This document shows positions 39,945 through 64,000 of a DNA stretch of 64,000 nucleotides, one piece after another. The notes below the pieces were generated by a model, which was not told the DNA's origin, made no database searches, and was given only the letters and a program-made list of their open reading frames with translations. The translations under genes and the position numbers were made by a program. Source of the stretch: Elephas maximus indicus (Eukaryota > Chordata > Mammalia > Proboscidea > Elephantidae); assembly GCF_024166365.1 (NCBI RefSeq), contig NC_064838.1:73424001-73488000 (forward strand), given 5' to 3'. Within the stretch, counting starts at the first letter, position 1. Every line of letters starts with the position of its first letter.

Positions 39945-40225
39945 CAATTTCAATCTTTGATGTATATACAAGATAATTCAGTTAATATGTTCTCAAAAAG
40001 CATTTATGCAGGAAGTTTTACGGCAGTTTTATTCATGATAGCCAAACATTTCCTGCATCAGAACGGAAACAATTGCTCAGGAACCATACAATGGAATGCA
40101 GCTTTGTAATATAAATGATGGAGTTACAGAGACACACAAAAATATGGTTAAATCTTTTAAATATGTTGACTGAAAGAAGCCAGATATCAAAGTGAACTTT
40201 TTTTTTTCTGATTCCAAAGTTTCTA
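39945..40225 (+). mobile_element. L1 3' fragment in duplication copy 2
   Basis: Paired with 30415-30700. Reads TTTATGCAGGAAGTTTTACG and GAAGCCAGATATCAAAGTGA. Confidence 0.65.
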
Positions 40226-40344
40226 CCCAATGGTGATGAGAAATAAGAGCTTCTCTATTTAATGGTGATAGAAGTCAGAATAATGACTGCGTTTGTGGGG
40301 CCAAGAGATCAACGTGAAAGTAGCACAAGAGATGCTGAATGATG

Positions 40345-41170: not shown

Positions 41171-41589
41171 GTGGATATATGAAATCTGCTCTATACTACA
41201 GTTTGGTCATCATATATATTATCTAGGTATTATTCATTTTGCAATAAATTATATTTTCTATGCATTTTATTTCAGCAAATTAAAGAAGAAAAAATATTTG
41301 CTATGACATAGGAGTATTGTGTTTAGAGGTACTAAATCTACTGCCTTAGAAGATAAACAACGTAGATAATGTCAACCATTCTCTTGCTTATACATTGTAA
41401 ATCAATCCAGTTCCAATAGTAGTGATTTAGTTATTTCTGAAGAGAGGAGAAATGAAGGCATTTGTCTAATTATTTATTTTGTAAACATTTCTTTGAGCTT
41501 ACATCTCTCTAGACAGTAGGCTAATCAAATCATGTTGTTCAGTCTCAAACTATAAAGGGTTCCTAAAGTCATATTTTCTGTACAAATGT

Positions 41590-42513
41590 CTATTTTCCCA
41601 AAACTCTTTTCATAGCCCCCATGACCTCCTTATTCCTCAGACTGTAGATAAATGGGTTCAGAAGAGGTGTAATGATACTGTAAAATACCACCACCACTTT
41701 ATCTTCCTCAGGGTAATGCAAGGTGTGTGGTCTTGTATAGGTGGAGAGAGCAGTCCCATAGACTAGGCTTGCCACAATCAGATGAGAGGAACACGTGGAG
41801 ATGGCTTTTGTCTGCCCTTTACCTGAGCTCATCTGGTATACCACAATAAGCATCCGGGCACAGGAAGCCAGAATGGCCATGAATGGTAGTAGCAGAATGA
41901 TAAGGACACTAAAGAGGACGGTATACTTATACTAGGAGGTGTCCTGACACACCAAAGGCATTAGAGATGGAACTTCACAGAAAAAGTGGTTAATGATCCG
42001 AGATGTACAGAATGGAAGTTGAAATACATACAGTGTATGTATTAAAGCATTGATAGAACTACTGGCCCATGCACATGTGACCATGGACAAACAGATCATC
42101 TTGCTCATGAGCACAGGATAATGTAAAGGGTGACAGATTGCTATGTATCTATCATAAGACATGAAACCAAGAAGAAGAGCTTCAGTTCCACCAAGGGTCA
42201 AAACCACAAAGGTTTGAATCTTACAACCTAAAAAAGTAATGGTCTTACTATTTGACAGGAAGTTTGCTGCCATCCTGGGTACCGTGGTGGAGATGTACAT
42301 CATGTCAATGAAGGAGAGCTGACTGAGGAGGAAGTACATGGGAGTGTGGAGCAGAGTGTCCAATCGGATGAGGTGGATCAGTATGATATTCCCCATCAAA
42401 GTCACTGAGAAGAGGCCCACAATGGTAACAAAGAGGACAGTGTTCATTTGGCCATATTGGAAAAAGCCAAGAAGTATAAATTCTGTTCCAAAAGTTTGAT
42501 TTTCTGTCTTCAT
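41590..42513 (-). pseudogene. OR2AK2: OR2AK2-like receptor with a single nonsense codon, copy 2
   Basis: The frame is colinear from ATG to TAG over 308 codons including the stop. The only visible lesion is an in-frame TAG at codon 194 (41932-41934). The paired codon in copy 1 is CAG, giving [10 protein letters not shown] as in human OR2AK2. Before it lie NQT (5-7), LHTPMYF (55-61), Cys97, [15 protein letters not shown] (118-132) and [10 protein letters not shown]. After it, still in frame, come [40 protein letters not shown] and [20 protein letters not shown], ending VLGK. The stop falls at the end of ECL2, so TM5-TM7 would be lost. It could be a recent or segregating pseudogene. CAG to TAG is a single C-to-T change. 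A probable splice acceptor (TTTTTATTTAAG) lies just before the ATG at 42516. Confidence 0.93.
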
Positions 42514-42599
42514 GGCTTAAATAAAAATAAAGCAGACAATATCTGAAAATTCAGTGTAAACAACATTGAAGGTCCTTCAAAAGAAAACAAAATGATTAT

Positions 42600-43940
42600 T
42601 AAATGCAGTAGAATTTCCTTGAATCACTTTAGGTGACTATTTCTCCCCTTGTTTCTATGTATGCACTGAATCTGTGTCTGTTGAGCAACGGCCAATTTGA
42701 AAAAAAAAATATTATCTGGAAATAAAAATTTAGATGATTTGCCAACATGAGTTTTTTCTCCCCTTTTAAATATCTTCAAGATGAGAGCTTGGAGATGTGT
42801 TTACTTGGTATGAAAAAAAAAATCTTTCACTCCATTCACTTAAATAATTAAACATGACAGTGATGTTCAAATATGGTATAATATTCTTACAAAAAGAATT
42901 TCTTTCTCCATTTCTCAATTTTGAAATTATATTGGCTATTTTTTTTTTTTATAGGTTGTAATAAATGTTATATTACCATTTGTATGTCAGGAATACTACA
43001 ACTCTTGTAAATGAATTGGTGATTATTTCTATAATATCTGTAATTGTATGTGGAAATTTGTTGCCCACGCAAAAAACAAATATGCAACACCTTTAAGAAG
43101 GGCTGGAGAAAGAAACATTAAAATGTTACGTTAGCAATTATTAATCTAAGTTTAACTCAAGGAACATGTCAAGAATGGCATTTTGAATTTGACTTGGTCC
43201 TTTTATATTAATAGGGGAAATTTACATTTAAACTGCACTTGGATGAAATGTCAGTTAGTAAAATGTTATTACTTGCTCCTCAGTTGAGATATGGAGTCAA
43301 AAGGTATTGATGCCCCATTAAAATTTGAAAGTTTTAGGTAATTGTTATTACAAATATTGCTCAACGAAGTTGAGAAATTAAAATTATTTTCAGTAAAAAC
43401 TAGTCAGCTTTAATATAAAGTGTGACAAATATGAAAATTAATTGACAATACCAACGGTTGATTATACATACATGCAAATATAAATACAATTCTAGCATAT
43501 AGAACTCAATGATCTATGATAAAGTTTTATTTATTGTTGACCTGACTATACTTGGTTCAAGGTGCAGTCACTTATGCTAAGCCCCACATCAGCAAACCAA
43601 ACCTAAGTCTAGTTCCTACAAATGCCTGACCTTCCCAGAAGCCCAAATGTGAGTTAACCAATTAAGACTTGCCTGCTGACCTTAACCTGGTTCAAAACGT
43701 TCCATTAATCCCATCCCCATCACCAGAACTGTTAAAAACAAAATTTTTACAAAATTAAATTTGTATAAGAACTCATAGCCTGTAGTTGCTATTCATGAAT
43801 TAGAAAGCTCTTGTCTGAAACTTCCCATTCATAAATTGCAAGTTAAACTTATGGGTTCATATACAAACCTAATCTTGTAGAAATTTTGTTTTTAACATTA
43901 TCTATAGTCAGCCAAGTTGGTATAAACTAAGGCACATTTG
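42600..43940. other. Non-coding duplicated sequence upstream of the pseudogene
   Basis: Colinear with 32880-34840 minus the copy-1-specific SINEs and the GATA array. It should contain the 5' intron and upstream exons of the receptor. None can be placed by eye. Confidence 0.45.
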
Positions 43941-44779
43941 ACTATAAGTAATCATATCATTAAGTTATATAGGAAAGATACTACACACATTTCATATATT
44001 CTAAAAAGCTTTGATCCTATTGAACCGTCTTTCTTCATTATAGGCCTTTCTCAAAGAACAGTGCTTTTCTCTAAAACTGCAAACACAGTGATATAAAATA
44101 ATGATGGATGTTTGTATAATCCAGAAAAAAACAAAGACTTATTCTAACAACATTATGATTTTTTTGAATGTTCTAACCCATGAAATAGAATATGACAAAT
44201 AAAAATAACAACACAAAAAAGAAAAAAAAATTCTATTTAAAAGCTTTACTGTTTTTGAAAACCTAATAAATGAAAAACATTTAACTTGCTAAAAGTGTTC
44301 GATAAATTGTATAAATTATAATTTATAGTTAGCGACATTCTAATACATATTTTTAATATTCTTAAAATTTTTCACCTTAGTAATAACAATACTCAATGAT
44401 AATAAAATATTATTTAAATATGGTTATCCAAAAAACTGGCTTATGTTTTAAAAATATCAAATGCAAACACATGTAACTGAAAGGACAAAATAAATGTCAT
44501 TGCAAGCTAGTTCACTGTAAACCAATTTATGTAAATAGAATCTAAATTTTAAGATAGGTTATATATTTCAGACCATGATGCAATTTTTTAATAAAAATCT
44601 GAAAGAAAATGATTGAGTTAGAAATAAAAATTAAAAAAAAATGTTGATCAGAGAATGAAGAGGAGGAAATACAACACATAAAATTTTATGGATATAAATG
44701 TGATGAAATAGCGTGATAATTGGGCGTGATAGAAAAACAGGAAAGTAAGAATACAATAGCTGTAGAAGTTATCAGGAGT

Positions 44780-44985
44780 CTTGATTCTGGTGTAGTGATT
44801 TTAGCACTGAGCTGCTACCTGAAAGGCAGGCGGTAGTTGGAACCCACCAGCTGCTGAACAGGAGGAGAAAGATGTGGCAGTCTGCTCCTGTAAAGATTTA
44901 CAGCCTTGGAAACCCTATGGGGCAGTTCTACTCTGTCCTATAAGGTCACTATGAGTTGCAATTGACTCCATGGCAGTGGGTTTAT
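44780..44985 (+). mobile_element. AfroSINE, longer variant
   Basis: Contains AGCACTGAGCTGCTACCTGA, AGAAAGATGTGGCAGTCTGC, AAAGATTTACAGCCTTGGAA and CTGTCCTATAAGGTCACTAT. The AAAGATGTGGCAGTCTGC block is an extra middle section, also found at 45215. Confidence 0.88.
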
Positions 44986-45039
44986 AGAAGTTATATAATT
45001 ATTATATGACTATGTATCATCAATAAATTATATACTCTG

Positions 45040-45115
45040 CCCATTGCCTTGGAGTCAATTCCATTTCATAGTGACCACTGGGCAGAGCAGAACTGCCCCA
45101 TAGGATTTCTAAAGC
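45040..45115 (-). mobile_element. AfroSINE 3' fragment, reverse
   Basis: Reads CCTTGGAGTCAATTCCATTT and GGCAGAGCAGAACTGCCCCA, the reverse of the SINE end. Truncated. Confidence 0.8.
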
Positions 45116-45129
45116 TACAATCAGTACAG

Positions 45130-45325
45130 AAGGAGCCCTGTTTGTGCTGTGGTTGTGTTTGGCTGATAACAGAAGAGGTGGTGGGTTGATCCTACTAGGT
45201 GCTTTGAGGGAGAAAGATGTGGCAGTCTGCTCCTGTAAAGATTTACTGCCTTCGAAACCTACTTTGTCCTATACGGTCACTATGAGTTGGAATCTACTGG
45301 ATGGCAGTGGGTTAATCTTTATAGA
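45130..45325 (+). mobile_element. AfroSINE, longer variant
   Basis: From AGGAGCCCTGTTTGTGCTGT through AGAAAGATGTGGCAGTCTGC to CACTATGAGTTGGAATCTAC. Same middle block as the copy at 44780. Confidence 0.88.
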
Positions 45326-45327
45326 AA

Positions 45328-45430
45328 CAGGCTGCCACATCTTTCTTCCTTGAAGTTCCTGGTAGGTTCCAACCCCTGACCTTTGGGTTAAAGCCCAATG
45401 CTTAACGACTGTACAGCCAGGGCTCCTTCA
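45328..45430 (-). mobile_element. AfroSINE head fragment, reverse
   Basis: Reads GCTGCCACATCTTTCTTCCT, the reverse of the AAAGATGTGGCAG block, then ACGACTGTACAGCCAGGGCT, the reverse of the head. It lies tail to tail with the preceding copy and can pair with it. Confidence 0.82.
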
Positions 45431-45880
45431 ATAAAATATGTAGAGAAGTCTGTTCTTTTTGTGAATTTGATCGTTTGTTCTACATTTTCTCCCACTCTGT
45501 CCAGGACTCTCTGTTGTAATCCCAGTCAGAGCAGAACCCTGGAGACTATGGCCCCTGGAGATCCTTCTAACTCAGAACTGAAGCCACCCCTGAAGTTTAC
45601 CTTTGAGCCAAAGGTAAGACAGGCCTATAAAACGAACAGTATTTGACATCAAATGGGCTACACCTGCCAAAAAACAGAGAGGAGAAGGCAGGAATGGACA
45701 GGAAAACTGGACAAATGGAATGTGGGAATGTGGCATGGAAAGGGGAAAAGTGCTGACACAATAGGGATTGCTGCCAATGCCATGAAAAAAATCGTGTATA
45801 AATCTTTGAATGACAAAGTAATATAAACATATATATGGAAGGAAAAATTTATTTAAAAAAAAGAAAATGGGAACACTGGC
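45431..45880 (+). mobile_element. Unclassified repeat-like block
   Basis: GC-richer stretch with AGCAGAACCCTGGAGACTAT and later GGCATGGAAAGGGGAAAAGT, followed by TATAAATCTTTGAATGACAA. The second part resembles the layout of the L1 3'UTR at 17540-17680 but the match is weak. The 82-aa frame (45398-45646) has no recognisable domain. Confidence 0.35.
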
Positions 45881-46321
45881 AACAATTTCCAAACTATTGG
45901 AATGCCCATTTCATCAGGTGGGGGTCGTTATTTTGATTTTGTAGTTTTTACCCCAAAAAATTTCATGTAAAGAATTATAAATCTAAACAAGAACCCAAAT
46001 TAAATTCTTAGAATAAATAAAAAATTTTAATATCACAAATAAAATCCAATTTACCAAAAATTAATAAAAATGAAAAGAGCTAAGCAGAAAAAATATATAC
46101 AAATAAGTGATACATCGAAAATGAAATAGAAGGCTTAAAATAAAGAAATAATCCCAAAATATTAAAACCTAGTTAAACAAAACAACTTTATTAAATTATT
46201 GGGCCAAAAATGTTGTGAGCAACATTATCAGATATGCAGTAGCATAGTTTTGGTAAAACACGGTAGATCTTTTCAAAACTTGCTAATCATTTCTCACGAC
46301 CTTTGATCATTTTCATACCTG

Positions 46322-46472
46322 TCACAGTCGTTGAGTTAGGGCTGCCTACCAAAAGGTTTGCAGCTCGATTCCACCAGCGGCTCCTTGGAAACCATACTGG
46401 GCAGTTCTACTCTGTCCTACAGGGTGGCTTTGAGTCAGAATAGACTTGATGGAAACGGCTTTTTTTTTTAAC
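46322..46472 (+). mobile_element. AfroSINE, 5'-shortened
   Basis: Reads GGGCTGCCTACCAAAAGGTT, GATTCCACCAGCGGCTCCTT, CTGTCCTACAGGGTGGCTTT and ends in a T run at about 46460-46470. Confidence 0.9.
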
Positions 46473-46479
46473 TAACAGT

Positions 46480-49400
46480 TTCATATTAGGAATTTTTTTT
46501 GTGTAATTTATAGAAATATACTAAACATACAGGAGAAATTTGAAATGAAGGGTACATGATAAAAATGGAGAAAGGAACTAAAAACATCAACTTGTTGAGA
46601 TAATGTGCATATATTCAAAATCGGTTATGAAAACTAGACAGTTACACATTATATACACACATACATACATATGCATATAAGCATATATATTTCACTAAAA
46701 ATAAAACAATTTACAAAATATTTTAATACCACTGCATAAGTTTCTCAACAGGTGTTTGTATTGCTTGAAATACTTTACATAGTTTACAACCTTTCACCTT
46801 TCTAATAATATTCCTGAACATGACTATGTCCTAAGCATAATGTAAAGTGGTAAGGCAAAAATAAGAAAGAAATGTTTTTTCTACCCCAATCAAGACTATG
46901 AGTGATAGCTGCAGGGCCATGCTGCCCAGTAGGGGTTGCATTGGACCTTCAAACCCTAACCCTTATCTCACCTTCCCAAGAAATGTCTCTCACCTTGCTC
47001 CTTTGTGATTGCCGCCCCAACAAAATTTCAATTCAATATATGGTCAAATCAATCTCACATAACTTACCTTGATACTCATTTTTGCAGAAATCATTCAAAT
47101 GTAATCTGAATAATTTGGGCAGCCCAGATACCATGCAAATCCAGGAAATGAGTGTGCAAAAAAAACAATACAATCCACTCTACATAATTTATCAAATAAA
47201 ACACATTCCTTTAAATAGTGTCCCTGAGATTAGTTGTATATTGATCTTTTTGATATGAATTGTAGTAAAGTCTCCAAGGTATTGTAATATTTTAGGTTAA
47301 ATTCAGAGTAATTAGTGGCCTAAAACAGCTATTTGAAATTTGAATTGTTGTTGTTATGAAGGAGACTGCTCACATCCAGCGGGTCATGTTTTTAAAACTG
47401 AAGAATAAGCTACTGCATTGAAAAGCACATTCTTCTTCATTAGATGTGTAGACATCCACATTCTTTTCCAGATATAAAGTAATTAATTTTAAAACTTATT
47501 TCAGTTGAGATATATAGTGTCTCATATAGAGATATGTTTCATTTTCCCAGTAAATTTTATTTGAAATAAAACATTAGGTAAGAAGCTGGGGAAGGGGTCT
47601 GCAAAATTAAATAGATTTCCCTGTCACCCAACTTGGGGATAGTGTTACATACTCACAGCAAGTCCGTCTTTCACAAAGTTTTAAGTTAAATTATATTGTT
47701 TGTTGGTTATATACATCAAAGAGTCACAGAGACAAACCGCATATATTATGAATAATCAAGCTACTTTATTTGGCACCTCTACGGGGTGGCAGAGAACTAG
47801 ATTTGAAAAGGAATCCAAAACTGTAGAAACCTCTAATCTGAAACACATTTCAGGAACTGTTACCACACTACGAGTATGCAAGATTGCCTTTGTTTTTTTT
47901 TTGCCTCAGACAATAAGCCTTCAATCATTTACCATGAAAAATTTTAATAAAAAAAGAAATGTTCAAACTCATTTTCTCATCCTTATATGAGGCTTTCAAC
48001 CTCTTGATAGAAATGGGCTGACTGCCTAATCATGGTGGAATTCATATTTTGTTTCTCAGAGGCCTTCTGGGGGAACTAGGTCTCTAGCCCACAATTAAGC
48101 ACATTGTAGAAATTGTAGGTGATATTTTATGAGGCCTAGTTTTTTTTTTTTTAGTATCTACACTCCGGGGAGAAAAAAAAAAAGAACAAAGGGTCAAGGC
48201 TCAAAATATATTTGTTCAAGTGAAAAACAAATCAAATAACGAATCTTAACTGAATGTTAAAAAAAGAAAAACCAGTTAACTCTATTTTACCTTTAAAATA
48301 TGCGTGTAGATTTAGACTCCACGTAATTAGTAATCAACTAATATTTACTTTGATTTTTTTCTATACAAAATATGCATGCAATACTGAGAATTATATAATG
48401 TAGGAGATATTATGTTAAATACTGCAATAATTTTATTCTCAAAATAAACAAGTTGGCTTGACCATAGAAGTAAGAGACTCAGCTTTCTGGAAGTCCACAG
48501 ATCCAATATAAATGTTTCAGCCCCTAAGGTTTAAATGTCTCCAAGTTCATAAACAGGAATTTAGATTTTGGCATGATGCCCACTTAAAGTTGTTCTATTT
48601 GAATGAGATATATTTAATCTGGAAAAATTAAAGTGAAGTGGGATTTTAACCAGCCAATTCTCTTACCTAATTCCATGGGATGACATAAGACAGCTGCTGT
48701 GCTCAAGTAGGAAAAAGAAATGTGCAATAACTTAAGAAGAAAGGTGATGTAGGTCAGAGTTTAGAGAGAAAATACATAGGTTAACTCTATCACACACAGA
48801 GATATAAGTCACATCAGTAAGTTCTTATCTTCATTTTTCCTCAATTATAATTTATAACATAATTACTTCTTAATTTGAAATATTTTATCTCATTATTCTC
48901 TAAAACACCTTAAAAAGAAACTCCAGTCGTCAAACAATCATTGAGTCAGTCATAGGATAAAACGTAAGCATTCTGGAAACCAAATCTCAGAGTTTAACTG
49001 AAGAATTGAGTCCTATGAATGGTCAGCACTTGCCTCACTTTTGTTCACTGGTGGAAATATACCTAGAATATCAAGGTGACATTTGTAAATTTTGAATAAT
49101 GTGAAACTTGTGCAGTTTTTGGCACTTGATTTTAGAACCAGAAGACAAAAATGCAAATATAAAATCAATATAATCTTGGAAGGGGCCTGGACAGGTAAGA
49201 AGGTATTTGCTCTCTTGATTCAGGTATTAATTATTAACTTTCAAGTGTTACTGGTAATAGCATCTACCACTAATATTGTTTATTAAAAAGTAAATTAGTT
49301 AACACATGCAAACAACTTACAACATTGTCCAGCATGCTGCAAACACTCAACAAACAGCTTTAATGATGATTATTATTGATGCTGCCGTTTTTACTGCTTT

Positions 49401-49995
49401 TTTGATTATTATTTTACATAAACTAAGATTCAGGGATGGAAGCATCACCTGCATTGCTTTGCTCAAACACAGACACAAATCCTTTTAACAGCTTTCTACA
49501 CCCCCGTGTTACATGGTTCTACTAAAAACTCAACAAACAAAAATAGAACTCTCTGCACTGAGAATTACTTAAATAAACTTTATAAATACAGTCACTCTCT
49601 CTGCTCAGGTTCAAAGACTCTCCCAACGACATGATCACTGTTGAGGGCTGACCTCCTTCCAGCCAGGGGCAGCGTTCCTACCTAATAGCCAACACAGGGC
49701 AAATGAATGTTTTTGCCACCACCTGAGAAGCACTGAGTCTATACACATGGGTGCTTGGGCCCAAAATAGTGAACCAAGAGAGAATCATTAAGTCTCTTTT
49801 CCTCCAAATTTAAGCTCTTTAAATTCATACAAATAAGGAAAAAAAAGACCATCCAATTTTTTTGGATCAAGCTTAATGAGAAGTAATTTAAAATAGATTT
49901 AAAGCAAACGTGTCATGAAGAAAACTAATCAAGTGAATCAATTTTTCCCATAGGCATAATTAAGAAGTCATTGACATCTTTTTTTCCCTTAAAAT
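46480..49995. other. Non-coding duplicated sequence (copy 2)
   Basis: Colinear with 34860-38310. It has no SINE at the site of the copy 1 element 35836. No gene, RNA or named repeat seen. Confidence 0.45.
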
Positions 49996-50084
49996 CCAGG
50001 TCAATTTGAAGTTTGGTGTTGAAGAAATGTGAAGCTCAAAAGGGTAATAAGTAAACAAATAGAGAGAGATAAATAAATGAACAC

Positions 50085-50202
50085 ATGGATGGATGGATGG
50101 ATGGATGGATGGATGGATGGATGGATGGATGGATGGATGGATGGATGGATGGATGGATGGATGGATGGATGGATGGATGGATGGATGGGATGGATGGATG
50201 GA
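50085..50202. repeat. (GGAT)n microsatellite
   Basis: About 118 bp of nearly pure ATGG units with one GGGAT slip near 50187. In the minus frame it reads Ser-Ile-His-Pro, which is not a protein. Copy 1 has only a few ATGA units at the matching place (38380). Confidence 0.97.
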
Positions 50203-50269
50203 CAGGCATACAGAAAGACAGACATATGAATGAATGAATAGATGAATAAGTAGATAAAGAGATAGCTAT

Positions 50270-51147
50270 ATCAACAAATCAATAAATAGATGGATAAATA
50301 GATAAATAATAACAAGTTTGGCTTTCCAGAACTGTATTTTTTTGTGTTGATCTGATATCCTGCCATTCTGTTGAATTTGTATATTAAATCTAATAGTTTC
50401 TTTTTGTTTTTTATTTGTATTGTATATTTGTGGGTGTGTGTATGTGAGAGAGAGAAAGAGAGAGAATTCCTTAGGATATTCTATGTATAAGATCTTGTCA
50501 TCTTGAATAGGAAAATTTTTACTTCTTTCCAAATTCAAATGCCTTTAAAAAAAATTTTAGCCTAACTTTTCTGTCTAGTATTTCCAGAAAAATGTAGAAT
50601 AAGAGTTATGAAATCAGGCATCCTTGTCTTGTTCCTGATGTTAGGGAAAACTTGTAGTCTTTCACCAATGCGTGTGATGTTAGCTATGGGTATTTCATAA
50701 GTGTCCTTAATCAGATACGTGTAGTTTCCTTACATTCCTAGTTTGTTGAATGATTTTATTATGAAAGGGTCTTGGATTTTGTCGAATGATGTTTCTGCAT
50801 TCATTAATCAAATCATTTTTCCTTCATTTTCTTAATTAATTGATATTTATGCTTAACAACTCTTGCATTTGTGGGATAAGTTCCACTGGGACGTGGTTTA
50901 CAGTCTTTTCAATATGCTGCTATGTTTGGTTTGCTAGTATTTTGCTGCTGGATTTGGTTTGTTAGTACTCTGTTGAAGATTTGCATTCATATTCATAAGG
51001 GATATTGTGGGGTTTTTTGGCTTTGGTATCAGGATGATTATGTCATCATAGAATCAATTACAAAGTGTTCCCTACTATTTTCTTTTGCAAGAGTTTGAGA
51101 AAGATTAATGTTAATCTGTATTCATTACTTTATTATAATTTCTATCT
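50270..51147 (-). mobile_element. Old L1 fragment, reverse, in copy 2
   Basis: Paired with the copy 1 L1 (38400-39370). Landmarks are ATATCCTGCCATTCTGTTGA, TATAAGATCTTGTCATCTTG and GCAAGAGTTTGAGAAAGATT. It is cut by the RTE end at 51150. Confidence 0.75.
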
Positions 51148-51149
51148 CC

Positions 51150-51690
51150 TTATTGTTGTTGTTGTTTTTGCTAGGTGTGCTCGAGTCATTTCTGACTCAT
51201 AGCCACCCTATGCACAACAAAAGGAAACACTGCCCGATCCTGTGCCATCCTCACGATCATTGCTATACGTGAGCCCATTGTTGCAGCCACCATGTCAGTC
51301 CATCTTGTTGAGGGCCTTCCTCTTTTTCACTGACCCTATTCTTTCCCAAAGATGATGTCCTTCTCCAGAGACTGATCCTTCCTGGCAACATGCCCAAAGT
51401 ATATGAGATGAAGTCTCACCATCCTTGCTTCTAAGGAGCATTCTGGCTGTACTTCTTCCAAGGCAGATTTGTTCCTTATTTTGGCATATCATGATATATT
51501 CAACATTCTTCAGCAATAGATGCCAATTTTTCTTCAGTCTTCCTTACTCATCATCCAGCTTTCATTGCTTGGGTCAGGGGCACCTTAGTCTTCAAGGTGA
51601 CGTCCTTGCTTTTTAACACTTTAAGGAGGTCTTTTGTAGCAGATTTGCCCACTGCTGCTTCCATGGATGTTGATTGCTGAAACAAGTAAA
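51150..51690 (-). mobile_element. RTE (BovB-like) 3' end, reverse orientation
   Basis: Starts TTGTTGTTGTTTTTGCTAGG and continues with GACTCATAGCCACCCTATGC, CATGTCAGTCCATCTTGTTG, CAACATGCCCAAAGTATATG and TTTAAGGAGGTCTTTTGTAG. The minus strand keeps pieces of the RTE RT C-terminus in shifted frames (LGRSTARMLLRSKDGE). About 540 bp, longer than the other RTE ends here. Confidence 0.82.
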
Positions 51691-54385
51691 ATGAAATCCT
51701 TATTGTTTTAGGTTTTATGTTTAGGTCTTTGATCCATTTTGAGTTAGTTTTTGTTTATGATGTGAAGTATGCGTCCTGATTCATTTTTTCTACAGATGGA
51801 CATTCAGTTTTGCCAGTGCCATTTGTTAGAGACTGTCTTTTCCCAATTTAACAAAATTTGGTCCTTCGTCAAAAATCAGCTGCCCATAGTTGGACGGATT
51901 TACATCCGTGTTCTAAATTCTGTTCCATTGGTCTATGTGTTTGTCATCGTACAAATACCAGTCTGTTTTGATTGCCATGCCTGTATAGTAGGTTCTAAGA
52001 TTCAGTAGTGCGAGGCCTTCTTTCTACCTTGTTCTTCTTTAGTAGCACTTAACTTATCCAAGGCCTCTTTCCTTTTCACATTGGGTTGGTGATTAGTGTT
52101 TCCATCTCATTAAAGAATGCTGTTGCAATTTGGATCGGTATTGCATTATATTTGTAGATCACTTCAGGTAGTATTGACATTTTTATGATGTTGAGTCTTC
52201 CTATCCATGAGCATTTTTTTTTTTTCTTCCAATTATATAGGTCTCTTGGTTTCTTGCAGTAGCATTTTGTAGTTTTCTTTGTATAGGTCTTTTATATCCC
52301 TGGTTAGATTTATTCCCAAGTATTTTATCATTTGGGGGGGCTATTATAAATGGCATTCTTTTTGTATTTACTTTTTAAGTTCTCTTTGTTAATGTAGAGG
52401 AATCCAACTGATTTTTTATATGTTGATATTGTACCCTGCTACTTTGCTGAATCCTTCTATTAGTTCCAGTAGTTTTTTTGTGGAATCCTTGGAGTTTTCT
52501 AGGTATAGGTTCATTTCATCTGTGTATAGGGAAAATTTTGCTTCTTCCTTCCACTTTGGATGTCTTTTATTTCTTTCTCTTTCCATATTTCTTTAGTTAA
52601 GACTTTCAGTGCAATGACATTTTGGTTAGCAGCCGAGCACTTAACCAATGCACCACCAGGCCTCCTCTATGTCATCACCTTGAAATTTACCATTAACTTC
52701 CTAAATTTAAAACAGTCTTTTATTTATTGATATCGCTTTGGCTTCCTCTCCATATGGAAGTTCTATAACTACACCATTTCTTTCCTCTTTTTTGTTTTGA
52801 TGTCATCATTTACATATTGATGTCTTTGGTTCCCTGTTTTTAGCCTTTTAGCTTTGTTTTGTTTTTTAAATTCTTTATTTGGGTTGGTATCTGGGTGGTC
52901 TGTCCTGCGTCCAAATATCAGATTATTGTTTAATGTTTTTGTTTCTCTATTCGAAGGACTCTCTTTAATATTTCTCGTAAGTTTGGTCTGGTTTTTACAA
53001 ATTCCCTTAATTTATGCTTATCTGGAAATATTCTAATGTTGCCATTGTATTTGAGAGACAGTTTTACCGAATATAGAATTGCTGACTGGGTTTTTTTTGT
53101 TTTTGTTTTTTTACTTTCGACCTTTTATATAGGTCTTCCCACTGTCTTCTTGCCTACGTAGTTTTAGCTACATAGTTGGAGATTAGTTTTATTGGTTCCC
53201 CTTTGTAGATAGGTGACTTTATTTTTCCTTAGCTGATCTCAGGATTCTTTGTTTGTCTTTGGTCCTTTTTTTTTTGCAAGTTTGTTTATAAGTCTTGGTG
53301 ACTTTCTTTGGGCTCTATCCTGTATGGGGTTCATTGCACTTCTTGGATGAGTATCTTCTTGTCTTTCATGATGATAGATAGCGAAGTTTTCTGCCAGGAT
53401 TACTTTGACAATTGTCTCTGTGTTTTGCATTGCACCCAGCCCCATCCATTGGATCTCTTATCATATGCAAGTTTTTCCTCTTGATAGTGTCCCACATAAT
53501 TATTAGGATTTCTTCATTCTTTTTTCTGATTTTTCCTCAAACAAATTGATATCAAGAGATTTTTCTTTAATTTCACTAATCTGTCTTCCATTGCTTCAAT
53601 TCTGGTCCTATATTCTTCTTTTGAGTTGTCTGTTTCTGAAATTTTATTCTTAATCTTTTGGCTTTCTAGTTGATGTTTTTGTATGGTTTCTAGTTGTTTC
53701 GTTTTTATATTGTTTTCCTGAATTCTTTATCGCTTTTATGAGTTGTAAACAACTTGACAACAATGGGTTTTTTGTTTGTTTGTTGCTTTCTTTCATTTTG
53801 TCAGTGCCTTCCTTGATTTTGTCTATATTTTTCTTGGTTTTGCCTGTGTTTTCACAGGCTGTTTCTTACCTCTGGCAGTTTTTTTGTTCTTTATTTCAGT
53901 CACTTGCTGACTCCATCTTGTCCTGCTTCTTTTTGTGATTTGATATTGTCTGTTGTTTCCGAAGCATCAAGAAATTATTATATCTATTTATTTACTGTGT
54001 GTTTGTTGAACCCTGAAATTTTGTTTTGTTTTGATATATCCAAGTAGGCTGGGCCTGTGTTTTGCTCTGGTCTCTAATTTTGCCATTTTGATGCTCTCAC
54101 TACCTTTCTCAGGGTTGGTGGAGGAATGACTGCATGTGTGAGTGTGGGTCTCTCGTGGGGCTGTTGAGGATATAGGTGGTGTTTCTGTTGAGGTGGTGTG
54201 TTTGTCTGTCCAGCTGGACCCTGGCTGTGGGTGCAGTGGGTGATCTTCCTAGTTTTGGGGTTGCGTGCTGTGTCTGTGCTCTGCTGATTGCAGGGTGGTT
54301 GGGTTTGGGGTATCTGGGTTGTTGGTCCCCAGATGAGTTCTCTGGAAACACTCATCAATGGTTCCAGGTGAGCAGGGTTATGTGG
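51691..54385 (-). mobile_element. L1 retrotransposon, reverse, internally deleted
   Basis: The plus strand reads L1 backwards. C-terminal ORF2 blocks come first (TTTGATCCATTTTGAGTTAG, TCTGTTCCATTGGTCTATGT, TTCTTGCAGTAGCATTTTGT, CTACTTTGCTGAATCCTTCT). After a SINE fragment at 52617 come blocks of the 5' part of the element (AAGTTTGGTCTGGTTTTTAC, TATAGAATTGCTGACTGGG) and a GC-richer 5'UTR-like end to about 54385. The endonuclease and part of the RT appear to be missing. The satellite starts immediately after it. Confidence 0.75.
52617..52668 (-). mobile_element. AfroSINE head fragment, reverse
   Basis: Reads TTTTGGTTAGCAGCCGAGCA and AATGCACCACCAGG, the reverse of the tRNA-like head. It sits inside the L1 at the point of the internal deletion. 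Confidence 0.8.
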
Positions 54386-54391
54386 GGATGT

Positions 54392-54588
54392 TTAGAATTA
54401 GAATATAGAATACAGAAGAATATACATTATAGAAGAATATACACAGTAGACTATACAATACAGAATATAGATTATACAAGAGCACATAATACAGAATTTA
54501 GAACATAGAATGTAGAATAAAGACTATTAGAATACAGATTATAAAATATAGAAAATTATGGACTGCAGAATGTAAAATATAGAATACA
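54392..54588 (-). repeat. Heptamer satellite, A-rich arm (partial)
   Basis: GAATATA-type heptamers, the reverse complement of the TTCTATA array that follows. Nearly identical in order to 62283-62488: ATTATAGAAGAATATACACA and AGAAAATTATGG... both lead to the junction AGAATACACTATATTC. The left part is cut off by the L1. Confidence 0.85.
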
Positions 54589-57465
54589 CTATATTCTATT
54601 TTCAAAGTTCTTTTATATTCTGTATTCTATCTTCAGTGTTCTATGTTCCATGTTCTGTATTTCAAATTCTCTATTTTCTATAATCTATGTTCTTCTATAT
54701 TCTATATTTCATACTTTGCATTCTATATTCAATGTTCTACATTCTATATTTTTCTACATACAATATTCTTCTATATTCTATATTTCATATTCCATATTCT
54801 ACATTGTTATGTTTTAAATTCTTCCATATTCTATGCTCTATATTCTGTATTCTACATTCTAAATTCTTTATTCTACGTTCTTCCATATTCTTCTATATTC
54901 TATATATTTTTCTGTATTCTATATTCCATAGTCTACATTCTTCCTTCTATATTCTATATTTTTCTATATTCTGTATTCTATATTCTTCATAGTGTATATT
55001 TTGTTTTACATTCTATATTCTTATTCCATTATCTTCTATATTCTATAATCTATATTCTTCTATATTCTGTGTTCTTTATGCTTTATTTATATTCTATATT
55101 TTGTATTCTACATACTATATTCTTCTATATTCTATATTTTCTATATTCTATATTCCATCCTCTGTGTTCTATATTCAATGTTCTTTTTCTATATTCTATA
55201 ATTTTCTGTATTCTATACTCTACATTCTATATTCTTCTATACATTCTATATTCTTCTATAGTCTGTATCATATATTGTTCTATATTGTATATTGTGTATT
55301 TTGCATTCTACATTCTATATTCCATTATCTTCTATATTGTATAATGTATATTCTCTATATATGTATTTTTTATTTTATATTTTATATTCTGTACTCTACA
55401 TTCTATTTTCTAAATTCTATATTTTCTATATTCCATTGATTGTATTCTATATTCATTTTTTTCTATAGTCTATATTTTTTAATAATTTTCTGTATTCTAT
55501 ATTCCATGTTGCATATTCTGTATACTCTATTCTACATTCTATATTCTCTTATATTCTATCTTCTATATTTAATTCTACATTCTATATTCCAGAATCTTCA
55601 ATACTCTATAATCCATATTCTTCTATATTCTATGTTCTTTATTCTATATTTTATATTCTACTTTGTACATACTCTATTCTATATTTTTCTATATTCTCTA
55701 TTCCATACCCTGTATTCTATATCACATATTCTATATTCTGTGTTCTATATTCTATGTTCTATATTCAATATTTTTATATACTATATTCTTCTGTATTCTA
55801 ATTATATATTCCATATTCCTACATTCTGCATTCTATATTCTAGTCTTCTATGTTCTGTATTCTATATTCTACATTCTATATTCTTCTCTTATAATCTATA
55901 TTCTTCTATCTGCTATATTCTGTATTGTACATTCTGAATTGTATATTAAATATTCTACAGTCTACATTCTAAATTTTGCAATATTCTTTATTCTTCTCTA
56001 TACTCTATTCCACATTCTATGTTCTCTATTCTACATTTCATTTTCTTCTATATTTGACATTTTCTATTCTAAATTTTTCTGAATTCTATATTCTTCTATA
56101 TTCTATATTTTTTAGTGTTTATTCTACCTTCTAATCTCTATATTCTATATTCTTCTGTAATCTAATATTCTCTTGTATTCTCTATTCTATATTCTCTATT
56201 CTACATTCTATATTCTTCTATAGTCTGTAATCTATATTCTTCTACTTTATTCTATATTCTTCAATAGTATATATCCGATACCTTATATTCCATATTTGTC
56301 CATAGTCTATTTTCTTCTATGTTCTATCTTCTATTTTCTGTAGTCTGTCATCTATATTCTGTATTCTTCTATATTCTGCATTCTATATCCTATATCTTCT
56401 ATATTCTAAATTTTTGCTCTATATTTTCCTATATTCTGTATTCTGTTTTTGTTTTCTATATTCTTCTATAATTATACTCTACATTCTATTGTCCATATTC
56501 CATATTCTTCTATATTCTTTTTTCTTTTATATTCTGCATTGTATTTTCTATGTCCTATGTTCTTCTATATACTATATTCCTCTATATTCTATGTTCTACG
56601 TTCTAAATTCTTCTATATTCTATATTCTAAATTCTCTTATGTTCTATATTCTTTTATATTCTCTTTCTATATTTTTACATATTCTAGGTTCTATATTCCA
56701 TACTCTGTATTCTATATTGTATATTCAAAGTTCTATGTTCTATATTCTTTATTTTTATATATACTATATTTTTCTGTGTGGTATATTCTATGTTCCATAT
56801 TCTATATTCTACATTCTGTATTCTTTTAAATTCTGTATTCTTTTATATTTTACATTCTACATTCCATAATTCTCTGTATTCTACAATCTGTATTCTGTAT
56901 TCTAGTCTTTATTCTATATTTTATATTCTGTAGTCTACATTCTATATTCTAAATTCTGTATTCTATGTTCTTCAGTAATCTATATTCTTCCTTGTATAGT
57001 CTTCTACTGTGTACATTCTTCTATAATGTATATTCTGTATTCTATATCCTAATTCTTCTATATTCTCTATTCCATATTCTGTATTCTTCAATATTCTGTA
57101 TTCTACATTCTACTATATTCTTTTTCTTGTATTTTCCATACCCTTGTACATTCTATATTCTTCTATATTTCGTATTCTATGTTCTCCTATATTCTATATT
57201 TTACATTGTACATTCTATATTCCATTATTTTCTATATTGTATGATTTATTTTTTTATATTATATACTTTTGTGTATTTTTCACTGTATACTTTGCATTGT
57301 ATAATCCGTATTCTACATTGTACATTTTATATTCTTCTGCATTCTATATTCTAAATTTATATTCTATTTTCTTCTATATCCTGTATTCTGTATGCTATAT
57401 TCTTCTATAATGTATATTCTATATTCTTTATTCCAAATCCTCTATACACTGTATTGTTCTGTTTA
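54589..57465 (+). repeat. Heptamer satellite (TTCTATA)n, higher-order copy A
   Basis: Degenerate ATTCTAT, ATTCTGT and ATTCTAC heptamers with frequent 10-base ATTCTTCTAT units. Landmarks recur about 2.85 kb later, for example AATCTATGTTCTTCTATATT (54682 and 57546) and TTTGTACATACTCTATTCTA (55662 and 58482). No gene: all three plus frames spell the same 7-residue cycle FYILYSI, which explains the long open frames. Confidence 0.95.
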
Positions 57466-59878
57466 AAACGTTCTTTTATATTCTGTATTGTATCTTCCGT
57501 GTTCTATGTTCCATATTCTATATTTTAAATTCTCTATATTCTATAATCTATGTTCTTCTATATTCTATATTTTTGTATATTCTATATTCCATACTCTGTA
57601 TTCTATATTTGATGTTCTATATTCTACGTTTTTCCACATACACCATTCTTCTATATTCTATATTTCATATTCTATATTCTACATTCCACATTGTATATTT
57701 TAAATTCTTCCATATTCTATGCTCTGTATTCTATATTCTACATTCTAAATTCTATATTCTTCCATATACTTCTAGTCTATATTTTTCTATATACTATATT
57801 TTTCTGTATTCTCTATTCCATATTCTATATTCTTCCTTCTATATTCTACTATATTCTGCATTCTTCTATATTGTAGTCTGTATTTTATATTCTATATTCC
57901 GTTATCTTCTATATTCTATAATCTATATTCTTCTATAATCTGTGTTCTTTACCCTTTATTTTATATTCCATATTTTGTATTCTACATTCTATATTTTTCT
58001 ATATTACATATTCCATACTGTGTTCTATATTCAATGTTTTTTCTATAATCTATATTTTTCTATACAATTTTCTGTATTCTATATTCTTCATTCTTTACTC
58101 TATATTCTTCTATAGTCTGTATATTTTTCTATATTGTAAATTCTGTATTTTACGTTCTACATTCCATAATCTTCTATATTGTATAATGTATATTCTCTAT
58201 ATTATGTATTTTTGTTCTGTATTTTATATTCTATATCCTGTATTCTAAATTATTTTTCTATATTCCATTGTCTGTATTCTATACTCAATGTTGTTTTCTA
58301 TATTCTATATTTTTATAATTTTCTATATTCTATATTCCATATTGCATATTCTGTAAACTATATTCTACATTCTGTATTTTCTTATATTCCATCTTCTATA
58401 TTCTATATTTAATTCTATATTCTATACTCCAGAATATTCTATAATCTATATTCTTCTGTATTCTATGTTCTTTATTCTACTTTGTACATACTCTATTCTA
58501 CATTCTTTAAGTCTATTCAATATTTTTCTATATTCTCTATTCCATACTCTGTATTCTATATTCCATATTCGATGTTCTATATTCTATATTTTTTATATCC
58601 TATATTCTTCTGTATTCTACATTCTATATTCTGTAAGCTATATTCTACATTCTGCATTTTATTCTTCTATGTTCTGTATTCTATACTCTTCTACATTTTT
58701 ATTCTACATTCTATATTCTTCTGTTGTAATCTATATTCTTCTACCTGCTATAGTCCATATTGTACATTCTAAATTCTATATTCAATATTCTAGTCTACAT
58801 TCTATATTCTAAATTTTTCAATATTCTTTATTCTTCTCTATTTCCTATCCCATATTCTATGTTCTCCATTCTACATTCCATTTTCTTCTATATTCTATAT
58901 TCTGCATTTTATATTCTAAATTTTTTCTGAATTCTATATTCTATATTTTTTATGTATATTCTACCTTCTAATCTCTATATTCTATATTATTCTGTAATCT
59001 ATTCTCTTATATTCTCTATTCTACATTCTATATTCTTCTATATTTTGTCATCTGTATTTTTCTATTTTATTCTCTATTCTTCCATACTGTATATCCTATA
59101 CCCTATATTCCGTTTGTCAATATTCTATTTTCTTCTACATTCTTCTATATTCTGTAGTCTGTCATCTATATCCTTTATTCTTCTATATTCTCCATTCTAT
59201 ATCCTATATCTTCTAAATTTATGCTCTATGTTTTCCTATAGTCTGTATTCTATATTTTTCAATATTCTACATTCTTCTATAATTATATTCTACTTTCTCC
59301 TATTTTCCATATTCCTTATTCTTCTATACTCTATATTCTTCTGTATTCTTTTTTCTTTTATATTCTGTATTGTATCTCCTATGTTCTTCTATATACTATA
59401 TTCCTCTATATTCTATAGTCCATATTCTATATTCTAAGTTCTAAATTCTATATTTTATATTCTATACTGTACTTTCTAAATTCCATATTCTTTTATATTC
59501 TATTTCTACATTCTTCCATAATCTAGGCTCTATATTCCATTCTCTTTATTTTATATTGTATATTTAAAGTTCTATGTTCTTTATCTTTCTATATACTGTT
59601 TTTCTGTATGGTATATCTTATGTTCCATATTCTATACTCTATATCCTATATTCTACATTCTGTATTCTTCTATAGTATGCGTTCTATATTCTTCTATATT
59701 TTACATTCTACATTTCATAATTTTCTATATTCTATAATCCGTAATCAATACTCTTCATTTTATATTTTATATTCTGTATTCTACATTCTTTTCTTCTATT
59801 CTACATTCTATTTTCTATATTCCAAATTCTGTATTCTATGTTCTTCTATAATCTGTATTCTGTATCGTATAGTCCTAT
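57466..59878 (+). repeat. Heptamer satellite, higher-order copy B
   Basis: Follows copy A in order, including the CTATTTCAT/ACATTCTAAATTCT landmarks and the TTTGTACATACTC block. It ends early at 59878, within a segment matching 56967-57015 of copy A, where the GC-rich block begins. About 0.4 kb of the expected copy is therefore missing here. Confidence 0.93.
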
Positions 59879-61597
59879 AGGGTAGCCCGCACGCACGAGC
59901 AGGCCCGAATAGCCGAGCCCCGCAGGTAAGGCGAAGCCTGAAAGGAGAGTCCCGCAGGCCCCAACGGAGAGTCCCGCAGGCAAGAAGTGTCTGGAAAGGA
60001 GAGCCCCGCAGGCATGAATAGGCGCGAACAGAGAGTCCCGCAGGGAAGAATAGGCCCAAACGGAGAGTTCTGCAAGCAAGTATAGGCCCAAATGGAGAGT
60101 CCCGCAGGCAAGCACAGGCCAAAACTGAGAGTCCGGCAGGCAAGAATATCCCTTAATAGAGGAGCCTCACAGGCAAGAACAGGCCCAAATAGCGGAGCCC
60201 CGCACGCAGGAAAAGGCCTGAATAACGGAGCTCCACAGGCACGAAGAGGCCCGAATAGAGGAGCCCCGCAGACAAGAGGAAGCCTGAAAGGAGAGTCCCG
60301 CAGGCAAGAATAGGCCCGAACAGAATCACACAGGCAAGAATAGGCCCGAATTGGGGCCCGGCTGGCAAGAAAAGGCCCTTACACAGTTCCGTGGGCAAGA
60401 ATAGGCCCGAATAGAGGAGCCCCGCAGGTAAGAATAGGCCCGAACAGAGTACCCCAAGAAAGAATAGACCCTAACAGAGAAGCCTGGAGTTAAGAATAGG
60501 CCCTAAAGGAGAGTCCTGCAGGCGAGAACAGACCTGAAAGGAGAGTCCGGCAGCCGAGAAAGGGCCCGAACGGAGAGTCCCGAAGGCGACAACAGGCCCA
60601 TACCGAGAGTCCCGCAGACGAGAATAAGCCTGAAGGGCGATTCCCACAGGCCAGAACAGAGGAGCCCTGTAGGCAAGAATAGGCCTGAACAGGGTCCCGC
60701 AGGCAAAAATAGACCTGAAGGGAGAGACCCGCAGAAAAGAATAGACCCAAATGGAGAGTGCCGCAGGCAAGAACAGGCCAGAACGGAGATTTCTGTAGCC
60801 AAGAATAGGCCCGAACAGAGTCCCGAAGGCAAGAATAGGACCGCACAGAGGAGTCCCGCAGGCAAGAACATGCCCGAATAGAGGAGCCCCACACGCACGA
60901 ACAGGCCGGAATAGCGGAGCCTGGCACGTGCGAACACGCGGAATAGCGGAACCGCCACACAAGAACACTCACGAATACCGGAGCTCCGCAGGCACGAGCA
61001 GAGCCCCGCACTGCCAAACGGCCCCAATAGCAGAAGCCCGCACGTGCGGACACGCCCAATAGCGGAGCCCCGCACGCACGAACAGGCCCGAATAACGGAG
61101 GCCCGCAGGCTCAAACAGGCCCGAATAACGGAGGCCCACAGGCTCAAACAGGCCTGAATAACGGAGCTCCGTAGGCACGAGCAGGCCCGAATAGAAGAGC
61201 CCCGCAGACAAGAGGAGGAACGAAAGGATGCTCCTGCAGGCAAGATTAGGCCCGAACGGAGGTTCCGCAGGCAAGAATAGGCCCAAACGAATGATCCCAC
61301 AGGCAAGAATAGGACCGAACAGAGTGTCCCACAGGCACGAATGGGCCCGAACGGAAGGTTCCACAGGCGAGAATAGGCCCGGACGGGGAGTCCCGCAGGC
61401 CAGGATAGGCCCGAATAGAGGAGCCCCGCAGGTAAGAAGAGGCCCTAACGGAGAGGCCTGTACGCGAGAACAGGCCGGAACAGAGAGTCCCACAGGCAAG
61501 AGCAGGCCAGAATAGAGGAGCCCTGTAGGCAAGAATAGGCCCCGAAGGAGAGTCCCACAGGCAAGAATAGACCTGAACGGAGAGTCCTGCAGAAAAG
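59879..61597 (-). repeat. CpG-rich 32-33-bp minisatellite embedded in the AT satellite
   Basis: About fifty units. One type reads GGAGAGTCCCGCAGGCAAGA then ATAGGCCCGAAC (32 bp). The other reads GGAGCCCCGCAGGCACGA then ACAGGCCCGAATAGC (33 bp). Blocks recur about 0.86-0.93 kb apart (60241/61171 and 60660/61519), so the block is itself a doublet. GC and CpG content contrast sharply with the flanks. Each unit keeps AGAATAG, the A-rich form of the heptamer. Open frames of 225-267 codons on the minus strand arise because the unit lacks stops in several frames, and they are not genes. Confidence 0.93.
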
Positions 61598-62488
61598 AAT
61601 GTAGAATGTTGAGTACAGTATAAAGAATATGGAATATAGAATACACAAAAATATACTATATGTAAATATATAGAAAATAGAAGATTGAATATAGAAAAAT
61701 ATAGAATATAGAGAAATTGCAAATGTTTAATATAGAATGTAGAATATAGAAGATTTTAAAATGTAGACTATACAATATGGAATATAGAATACAGAAGAAT
61801 ATGGTATAGAGAAAAATATAGAATATAGAACATCGAATATAGAATAGAGAGTATGGTATATAGGATATAGGAAAATATAGAATATAGAAAAACATAGAAT
61901 TTAGAATGTGAAATATAGAATATAGAAGAATTTAGAATATAGAATATGGAATATAGAAGGAAATAGTACATAGAAGAAAACTGAACATAGAACACAGAAC
62001 ACAGAAGATGTAATATAGAATGTAAAAGAATATAGAATATACAAGAATATGGAATACAGAAGAATATAAACAAGACTATGGATTATAGAATGTACATTAC
62101 AGAAGAATATAGAATACAGAATATAGAAGAATATTGAATATAAATTTAGAATATAGAAGAATATAGAATATAGAAGGCTATAGAAAATACAAGAAAAAGA
62201 ATATAGTAGAATGTAGAATACACAATATGGAAGAATAGAGAATATAGAAAAATGAGAATACAGAATACAGAAGAATATAGAATATACATTATAGAAGAAT
62301 ATACACAGTAGAAAACTATACAATACAGAATATAGATTATAAAAGAACATGTAATACAGAATTTAGAATATAGAAAGTAGAATGTAGAATACAGAAAATA
62401 GAATATAAAATATAGAATAAAGACTATAGAATACAGATTATAGAATATAGAAAATTATGGAATGCAGAATGTAAAATATAGAATACAC
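61598..62488 (-). repeat. Heptamer satellite, inverted A-rich arm
   Basis: About 0.89 kb of GAATATAGAA-type sequence. Its reverse complement matches two forward stretches. The right part matches 56845-57370 of copy A (shared TACTATATTCTTTTTCTTGT). The left part matches about 63620-63950 of copy C (shared CTATACCATATTCTTCTGTA-type order). The arm ends at the same AATACACTATATTC junction as at 54588. Confidence 0.92.
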
Positions 62489-64000
62489 TATATTCTTCTA
62501 TTTTCCAAGTTCTTTTGTATTCTCTATTCTATTTTCAGTGTTCCATATTCTATATTTTAAATTCTCTATATTCTATAATCTATGTTCTTCTATATTCTGT
62601 ATTTTTGTATATTCTATATTTTATATCCCATACTCTGTATTCTATATTCTACATTTTTCTACATACAATATTCTTCTATATTCCATATTCTATATTCTAC
62701 ATTGTATATTTTAAATTCTTCCATATTCTATGTTCTGTATTCTACATTCTAAATTCTTTATGTTCTTCCATATTCTATATTTTTCTATATACTATAATTT
62801 TCTGTATTTTACATTCCATGTTCTACATTCTTCCTTCTGTATTCTATATTATTCTATATTCTGAATTCTATATTCTTCTATATTGTAGATTCTGTATTTT
62901 ACATTCTATATTCTATATTCCATTATTTCTATATTCTGTGCTCTTTATGCTTTACTTCATATTCTATATTTTGTAGTCTACATTGTATGTTTTTCTATAT
63001 TCTATATTCCATACTCTGTGTTCTATATTCAATGTTCTTTTTCTATATTCTATATTTTTCTGTATAATTTTCTGTATTCTATATTCTACATTCTATATTC
63101 TTCTATAGTCTGTACCATATATTGTTCTATATTGTATATTCTGTATTTTACATTCTATATTCCATAATCTTCTATATTCTGTAATGTATATCTCTATATT
63201 ATGTATTTTTTATTCTATATTTTGTATTCTGTATTCTACATTCTGTATTTTTCTATATTCCATTGTCTGTATTCTATATTCAATGTTTTTTCCTATAGTC
63301 TATATTTTTTTATAATTTTCAGTATTCTATATTCCATGTTTTATATTCCATATTGCATATTCTGTAAACTGTATTCTACATTCTGTATTCTCTTATATTC
63401 CATCTTCTGTATTCTATATTCCAGAATCTTCTATATTCTGTAATGTATATTCTTCTAAATTCTATGTTCTTTATTCTGTATTTTATATTCTGTATTGTAC
63501 TTTGTACATACTCTATTCTATATTCTATATTTATTTCTATTCTATACTTTTTTATATTCTCTATTAATACCCTGTATTGTATATTCCATATTTTATATTC
63601 CAAATTCTTCTATATCCCATATTCCACATTCTAAATTCTATGTTCTTCTATATTCTATATTTTTCTATATTCCATACTCTCTATTCTATATTTGATGTTC
63701 TATGTTGTATATTCTATATTTTTCTCTATACTATATTCTTCTGTATTCTATATTCCATATTCCATATTGTATATTCTACATTCTATATTCTAAAATCTTC
63801 TATATTCTACATTCTGTATTCTATATTTTTCTATATTCTGTGTTCTATATTCAATGTTCCATTTTCTATATTTTTACACATACTTTATTTTTATGTATTT
63901 TATATTCCATATTCTTGATACTATATTCAACATTCTATGTTCTTCTATAGTCCGTATTCCATATTCTCCTACATTCTATATTTTACATTCTACATTCTGT
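62489..64000 (+). repeat. Heptamer satellite, higher-order copy C (runs off window)
   Basis: Restarts at the beginning of the higher-order copy, with AAGTTCTTTTGTATTCTCTA matching 54607 and 57470. It then follows copies A and B through the TTTGTACATACTCTATTCTA block at 63503. It continues past the right edge. Confidence 0.93.

Follow-up and report, generated by a model that had tools for sequence, protein, structure and literature searches.

A probable edge of an old, diverged composite satellite next to an olfactory receptor cluster in Elephas maximus

Results

Organisation of the array

The analysed window, a stretch of 64,000 nucleotides from Elephas maximus indicus (assembly GCF_024166365.1, contig NC_064838.1, positions 73,424,001 to 73,488,000), ends in a repeat array that spans 54,393 to the window end at 64,000, about 9.6 kb of it being visible. 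The array is probably the edge of an old, diverged, non-coding composite satellite that adjoins an olfactory receptor cluster and has a layout like that of human satellite I. Its nested periods of 7 and 2,860 bp support the reading as a diverged composite satellite. Which parts it contains, how they are arranged, how similar they are to one another and that one of them is inverted can be seen directly in the sequence, as follows.

54,393–54,583, minus strand: end piece of an inverted A-rich arm, truncated, corresponding to 62,251–62,482
54,584–57,443, plus strand: first copy of the 2,860-bp repeat, made of TTCTATA and TTC units (from alignment)
57,444–59,878, plus strand: second copy, ending near repeat position 2,434, where the CpG-rich block interrupts it (from alignment to the first copy)
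59,886–61,600, plus strand: CpG-rich minisatellite, 55 units with a 32-bp consensus (from tandem-unit alignment)
61,601–62,482, minus strand: inverted A-rich arm of about 0.88 kb (from inverted matches to the higher-order repeat)
62,483–63,571, plus strand: third copy, about the first 1.1 kb of the higher-order repeat (from alignment to the first and second copies)
63,572–64,000, plus strand: T array of doubtful register, running off the window and also giving an inverted match to the arm (from a semi-global fit)

The heptamer array and its higher-order repeat

The basic unit of the array is the heptamer TTCTATA with interspersed TTC insertions, and the commonest TTC-to-TTC spacings in the left-hand T array (54,588–59,878) were 7, 14, 3 and 10 bp. 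Strand was strictly kept, with TTCTATA occurring 168 times on the plus and 0 times on the minus strand of the left-hand T array, and 0 times on the plus and 34 times on the minus strand of the arm (61,600–62,488). An array 27-mer gave 65 matches with at most three mismatches in the window, all within 54,408–63,838, against none in 100 shuffles, which confirms the TTCTATA array described in a first-pass annotation of this DNA.

The AT content of the T array was 77%, and the array is thermodynamically weak, with a median of −1.065 kcal/mol per step that is reached by only 1.2% of the 101-bp segments in 1–54,392. Open frames on the T-rich strand were revealed to be the stop-poor heptamer read repeatedly; the searches for Rfam families at gathering score and for tRNAs gave no hit. 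Exact patterns from the CpG-rich block and the AT array matched 0 viral contigs, and for an 18-mer of the GC-rich unit there were 7 matches in bacterial contigs, each of them single, which is below the chance expectation of about 15.

At an offset of 2,860 bp, 54,584–56,990 aligned with 57,444–59,846 at 78.9% identity with gaps counted, compared with 68–72% for the remaining listed registers. The in-register alignment is thus better than the out-of-register ones, as in a higher-order satellite, and the copies of about 2.85 kb proposed at first pass are borne out. Stringent scoring gave 1,323 bits at an offset of 2,863 and a full-length identity of 79.2% between the first and second copies; the first 1.1 kb or so of the third copy was equally close to the second (81.3%), with 80.0% to the first. 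When gaps were left out, identity was 86.4% between the first and second copies and 83.1 and 81.5% for the two pairs that include the third, with Kimura two-parameter distances of 0.151 and of 0.194 and 0.214, respectively, where the values for the third copy include the last stretch of doubtful register. The alignment of each pair of copies contained 31–42 gaps. A minor sub-register of about 210–310 bp was visible in the off-register controls. By their sequence, the higher-order copies are about 14–19% apart and hence not recently homogenised; together with the 31–42 gaps, this divergence is as expected if homogenisation has lapsed.

The inverted arm

Under stringent scoring, 62,150–62,480 aligned with the reverse of 56,844–57,169 at 84.2% identity (300 bits), and 61,595–61,955 with the reverse of 63,580–63,944 at 82.3% (314 bits). 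Neither of two controls exceeded 146 bits. This value was the best off-register direct match of 30 segments, scored with the left-hand T array as the sole target, which contains the 300-bit match; the 314-bit match lies in the right-hand array. The right-hand array was included in the Markov simulations of order 5–8 (60 each, 240 in total), the best of which reached 144 bits against the 314 observed. The inverted A-rich arm named in the first-pass annotation was thereby upheld.

Mere heptamer similarity as an explanation for the arm had been suggested by lenient BLAST settings (reward 2, penalty 3), under which the arm, at 508 bits, remained below the highest null (520) and 3 of 35 nulls were at least as high. 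This candidate was overturned by the stringent scoring and the Markov simulations. On the strength of these alignments, the arm is a mosaic, in inverted orientation, of the 2,860-bp repeat, with specific homology beyond the common heptamers. Its divergence from the repeat (82–84% identity) is about that between the direct copies, which implies a similar age.

The A-to-T junctions

The recurring A-to-T junction of the first-pass annotation was located as AGAATACACTATATTC, beginning at 54,581 and 62,480. Both form long hairpins that are much more stable than the folds of dinucleotide shuffles (z −5.7 and −5.6), compared with z +0.3 for the one T-array interior tested, which folds no better than its shuffles. 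When random arm pieces were joined to random T pieces with halves of 150 bases, 136 and 144 of 150 joins were at least as stable as the true junctions, and with halves of 75 and 40 bases this was the case for 108–141 of 150. Since most random arm/T joins fold at least equally well, the junction hairpin is a by-product of the inverted heptamers and not evidence for a selected structure. Between the two junctions, which are two sequences only, 0 of 75 paired positions had changed on both sides.

These values bear on the possibility that the array is an unwinding, fragile or breakage site, in which repeats of the ATATTCT/ATTCT type and inverted AT-rich arms form hairpins, like the spinocerebellar ataxia type 10 (SCA10) repeat or a palindromic AT-rich repeat (PATRR). 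Cruciforms need near-perfect arm symmetry; the arms here match at about 69–84%, the best inverted pieces of more than 300 bp being at 82–84%, and this imperfect match, the equal stability of random joins and the lack of paired changes speak against such a site and set the junctions apart from a PATRR. In its favour are the strong folding relative to dinucleotide shuffles and the presence of ATATTCT, which occurs 155 times in the left-hand T array and is a named interruption of the SCA10 repeat, the ATTCT stretch of which is said in PMC5397023 to unwind easily. Taken together, we regard a role as an unwinding or breakage site as unlikely.

The CpG-rich block

The 55 units of the minisatellite match their consensus at 82% (1,383 of 1,687 aligned bases, with 56 deletions and 28 insertions), and two main unit types of 32 and 33 bp were distinguished by eye, in agreement with the 1.7-kb CpG-rich block of 32–33-bp units seen at first pass. 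The last unit passes into the arm without a gap. Over 59,879–61,599 (1,721 bp), the GC content was 58.8% and 107 CpG were counted, giving an observed/expected (o/e) ratio of 0.72, compared with 0.32 in the left-hand T array, 0.13 in the arm and 0.07 in the right-hand array. CpG islands are defined by at least 500 bp, a GC content of at least 55% and an o/e of at least 0.65, and the block exceeds these thresholds on length, GC content and CpG ratio.

Transitions at the four consensus CpG bases amounted to 38/216 (17.6%), compared with 44/693 (6.3%) at thirteen other C/G positions. For this count, consensus positions 10–12, which differ between the unit types, were excluded and all other C/G positions were used; as the units of the block are not independent of one another, a P value for the difference is only indicative. 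The CpGs of the block are, by this count, decaying as in methylated DNA, whereas an unmethylated island would show no excess decay. The threefold transition excess suggests that the block was methylated in the germline during at least some of its history. In fully methylated DNA, the CpG transition rate is raised about tenfold; the excess found here is smaller, so that partial protection or turnover of units would be possible.

A repeat-borne CpG island at work, with low methylation and starting transcription or hosting exchange within AT-rich heterochromatin, would agree with the composition of the block, in which any binding site would be present many times over, given the 55 tandem units. 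Moreover, CpG-rich tandem repeats are carried by the promoters of telomeric repeat-containing RNA (TERRA), and the spacers of ape subterminal caps are less methylated than the satellite, as described in PMC6600276 and PMC12758386. Against a working island stands the decay of its CpGs, as well as the absence of a tandem pair of TTAGGG or CCCTAA from the window. Likewise, the block contains no GCGCNNGCGC, which we take as shorthand for an NRF1-like site. A working island is unlikely on balance, with a small share of probability remaining to it.

The block was also compared with CENP-B boxes, as many centromeres typically carry higher-order repeats and the array might be a centromeric satellite. 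The CENP-B core was found in the block 0 times exactly, once with at most one mismatch (0.3 expected) and 5 times with at most two (4.8 expected). For the 17-bp elephant/armadillo box, the best site had 5 mismatches against a null mean best of 5.8, and five sites had at most 6 mismatches, where the null mean was 2.2 and the highest of 200 nulls was 7. The block thus holds no CENP-B box above chance, the mild excess at 6 mismatches being within the null range. Furthermore, the monomer of the elephant centromere is given as 936 bp in PMC4053949, and the array abuts an olfactory receptor cluster. This renders a centromeric satellite extremely unlikely. An offset of 936 bp within the block, considered as a trace of that monomer, was dropped because other offsets score alike.

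The word AAGAATA is common to the GC-rich unit (59,886–61,600) and the A-rich arm (61,601–62,482) beyond shuffled units. For 7-mers shared by the two, the excess was weak, with 169 of 20,000 shuffles as high. These words hint weakly at growth of the GC-rich unit out of the arm, or at a common origin of both, and are too thin for use.

Recurrence at a spacing of about 7.9 kb

Under stringent scoring, 54,417–54,553 recurred at 62,279–62,417 with 87.9% identity, and 54,488–55,685 recurred at 62,388–63,524; together, the two pieces cover about 1.3 kb and comprise the arm end and about 1 kb of T array. With lenient settings, the alignment extended to 56,109 and 63,934, respectively, at 77.1%, which speaks for continuity. 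The last stretch pointed in another direction: fitted alone, 63,572–64,000 was placed best at repeat position 40–459 (score 97) and second best at 848–1,278 (score 75), whereas its six best fits did not include the in-register position, from about 1,090 on. Two pieces in register, of 122 and 166 bp, scored 114–127 bits, versus 191 for position 39. To judge from these fits, the register is probably shifted after 63,572.

From the recurrence, the first-pass annotation had proposed a super-unit of about 7.9 kb. Of this proposal, a single strong recurrence covering about 1.3 kb stands, and the period was not established, since one recurrence, bounded at its left side by sequence resembling a long interspersed nuclear element (LINE) and cut off at its right by the end of the window, does not amount to a period. 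The window shows one CpG-rich block and one proximal arm, any further CpG-rich block lying outside it, and the order of parts is broken at 59,878 and 62,483, and probably also at 63,572. A regular super-unit of about 7.9 kb would be possible with this arrangement.

Integrity of the assembly

Satellites are prone to misassembly, and the CpG-rich block or the inversion could in principle be an assembly join. Among exact repeats, eleven 50-base words and one 60-base word occurred more than once and none of 80 bases did; an exact inverted match of at least 45 bases was not found. With exact repeats this short, long reads would place the copies. Fold-back of reads or collapsed copies would give near-identical arms, and the arms, at 82–84%, argue against an assembly fold-back. 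In addition, the copies are about 14–19% different and the last GC-rich unit continues into the arm without interruption. A misjoin of the array is, by these features, unlikely, and it is very improbable that the block or the inversion owes its presence to an assembly join.

The left flank and the olfactory receptor cluster

The sequence preceding the array is an olfactory receptor cluster with collinear duplicated pieces. The array is directly abutted, at 54,392/54,393, by the following feature.

51,696–54,392, minus strand: T-rich, LINE-like left flank

The LINE assignment was made by eye. The first part of the flank, 51,696–52,616, matches two other sites of the window at 75–77%, and the remainder to 54,392 gave short matches only.

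An intact, OR2T33-like olfactory receptor frame is present at 3,431–4,363 on the minus strand. Among the matches listed, it was 95–96% identical to three OR2T33-like proteins from Loxodonta africana and Elephas maximus and 85% identical to golden mole and aardvark proteins. These are from the 120 listed of 7,430 matches, with scoring limited to the 7,988 candidates that had most words in common with it, in a database clustered at 90% identity, where an exact elephant match may sit inside a cluster. A truncated frame at 32,173–32,808 (minus strand) was assigned to the olfactory receptors by eye, and 31,433–32,946 around it is a duplicate of 41,121–42,658 (88.5%). Collinear duplicated pieces with 75–89% identity form a chain that takes up most of 30,080–39,373 and 39,622–51,155 and stops about 3.2 kb before the satellite.

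Two tetranucleotide microsatellites were observed in this region, (ATCT) at 33,600–33,891 with about 73 copies and 90% matches, and (ATGG) at 50,085–50,202 with about 29 copies and 98%. At 29,635–29,820, a 91-bp copy occurs twice in tandem (95%), which looks like the tRNA-derived head of an AfroSINE.

Discussion

Formation and age of the array

For the origin of the array, the following course is the most parsimonious. The TTCTATA heptamer with its TTC insertions would have expanded to an AT-rich array by slippage and unequal exchange, after which a 2.86-kb segment would have been duplicated in tandem. The inverted piece may have come from fold-back, inversion or template switch, and a separate, unrelated 32-bp GC-rich minisatellite may have expanded at a break, the expansion being followed by drift. 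We infer slippage, unequal exchange and template switching as the makers of the parts from the anatomy of the array. The locus is presumably heterochromatic, and the array appears to be without a sequence-specific job, so that any effect would be exerted via bulk properties, such as easy strand separation or late or fragile replication.

Three observations weigh against an old, decayed satellite edge. Firstly, with 9.6 kb visible, the term edge is derived from one boundary, and the array could be short and isolated. Secondly, an o/e of 0.72 is more than one would expect of a methylated repeat that has decayed fully. Thirdly, the main CpG is retained in 30 of the 55 units, which could reflect function or unit turnover.

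Few elephant satellites turned up in the literature. As the inverted piece and the direct copies are of about the same age, the diverged satellite offers a legible record of breakage, inversion and uptake of a second, unrelated repeat at a satellite edge. No description of the array sequence was found in the open literature by searching that was partly aimed at it or at afrotherian satellites and did not cover Repbase or Dfam. The exact text of four 14-mers of the AT array led to one paper, on human SCA10 repeats. This composite satellite may be uncatalogued.

Comparison with known systems

According to the first-pass annotation, no described satellite has such a mix of parts. The composite of AT-rich, CpG-rich and inverted repeats holds, and the claim to novelty is too strong in view of human satellite I, the 22q11.2 breakpoint and the ape caps.

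Human satellite I (HSATI, DYZ2) resembles the array in layout, and its Alu insert is GC-richer than the surrounding satellite. It is a composite of a few kb in which AT-rich satellite is combined with Alu and AT-rich heptamer simple repeats, e.g., (TATATGT)n, and a palindromic AT-rich repeat is found in the breakpoint sequence of 22q11.2, which is related to it (PMC5906017 and PMC7767330). The likeness is one of form only and consists in the joint presence of an AT-rich heptamer array, a GC-richer insert and inverted AT-rich DNA. In contrast, the array described here carries a 32-bp CpG-rich minisatellite in place of the Alu, has TTCTATA as its heptamer and belongs to the elephant lineage.

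Human TERRA promoters contain CpG-rich tandem repeats of 61, 29 and 37 bp that form a CpG island (PMC6600276). The elephant block likewise consists of CpG-rich short tandem repeats, but its unit length is another, and the window has no tandem TTAGGG/CCCTAA, the array continuing past it. With the SCA10 repeat, an ATTCT repeat with ATATTCT interruptions (PMC5397023), the array has the heptamer ATATTCT in common; however, SCA10 is a disease microsatellite of one human intron and not a kilobase-scale higher-order satellite. Among paenungulate satellites, the manatee TMAsat has a monomer of about 684 bp with a consensus of 54.5% AT, and the elephant centromere one of 936 bp (PMC8421680 and PMC4053949). 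The array shares with them the paenungulate host and differs from the reported monomers in that it repeats at 7 and 2,860 bp and, in its T array, contains 77% AT.

In ape subterminal caps, the 32-bp pCht satellite alternates with less methylated, CpG-bearing spacers (PMC12758386). As in the elephant array, a satellite is interrupted by a different, CpG-bearing spacer; the ape 32-bp unit is the satellite itself, with segmental duplications tens of kb long as spacers, whereas the elephant 32-bp unit is the GC-rich interruption. By analogy, the array could belong to a paenungulate satellite in which a CpG-rich spacer between opposite AT-rich arms is partly unmethylated and serves as a transcription start and exchange point, which we consider a long shot. 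If this were true, it would constitute a non-primate version of the ape subterminal plan of a satellite plus a less methylated spacer, situated beside a receptor-gene cluster, and a less methylated CpG-rich spacer would add another mammalian order to the ape pattern of spacers within satellites.

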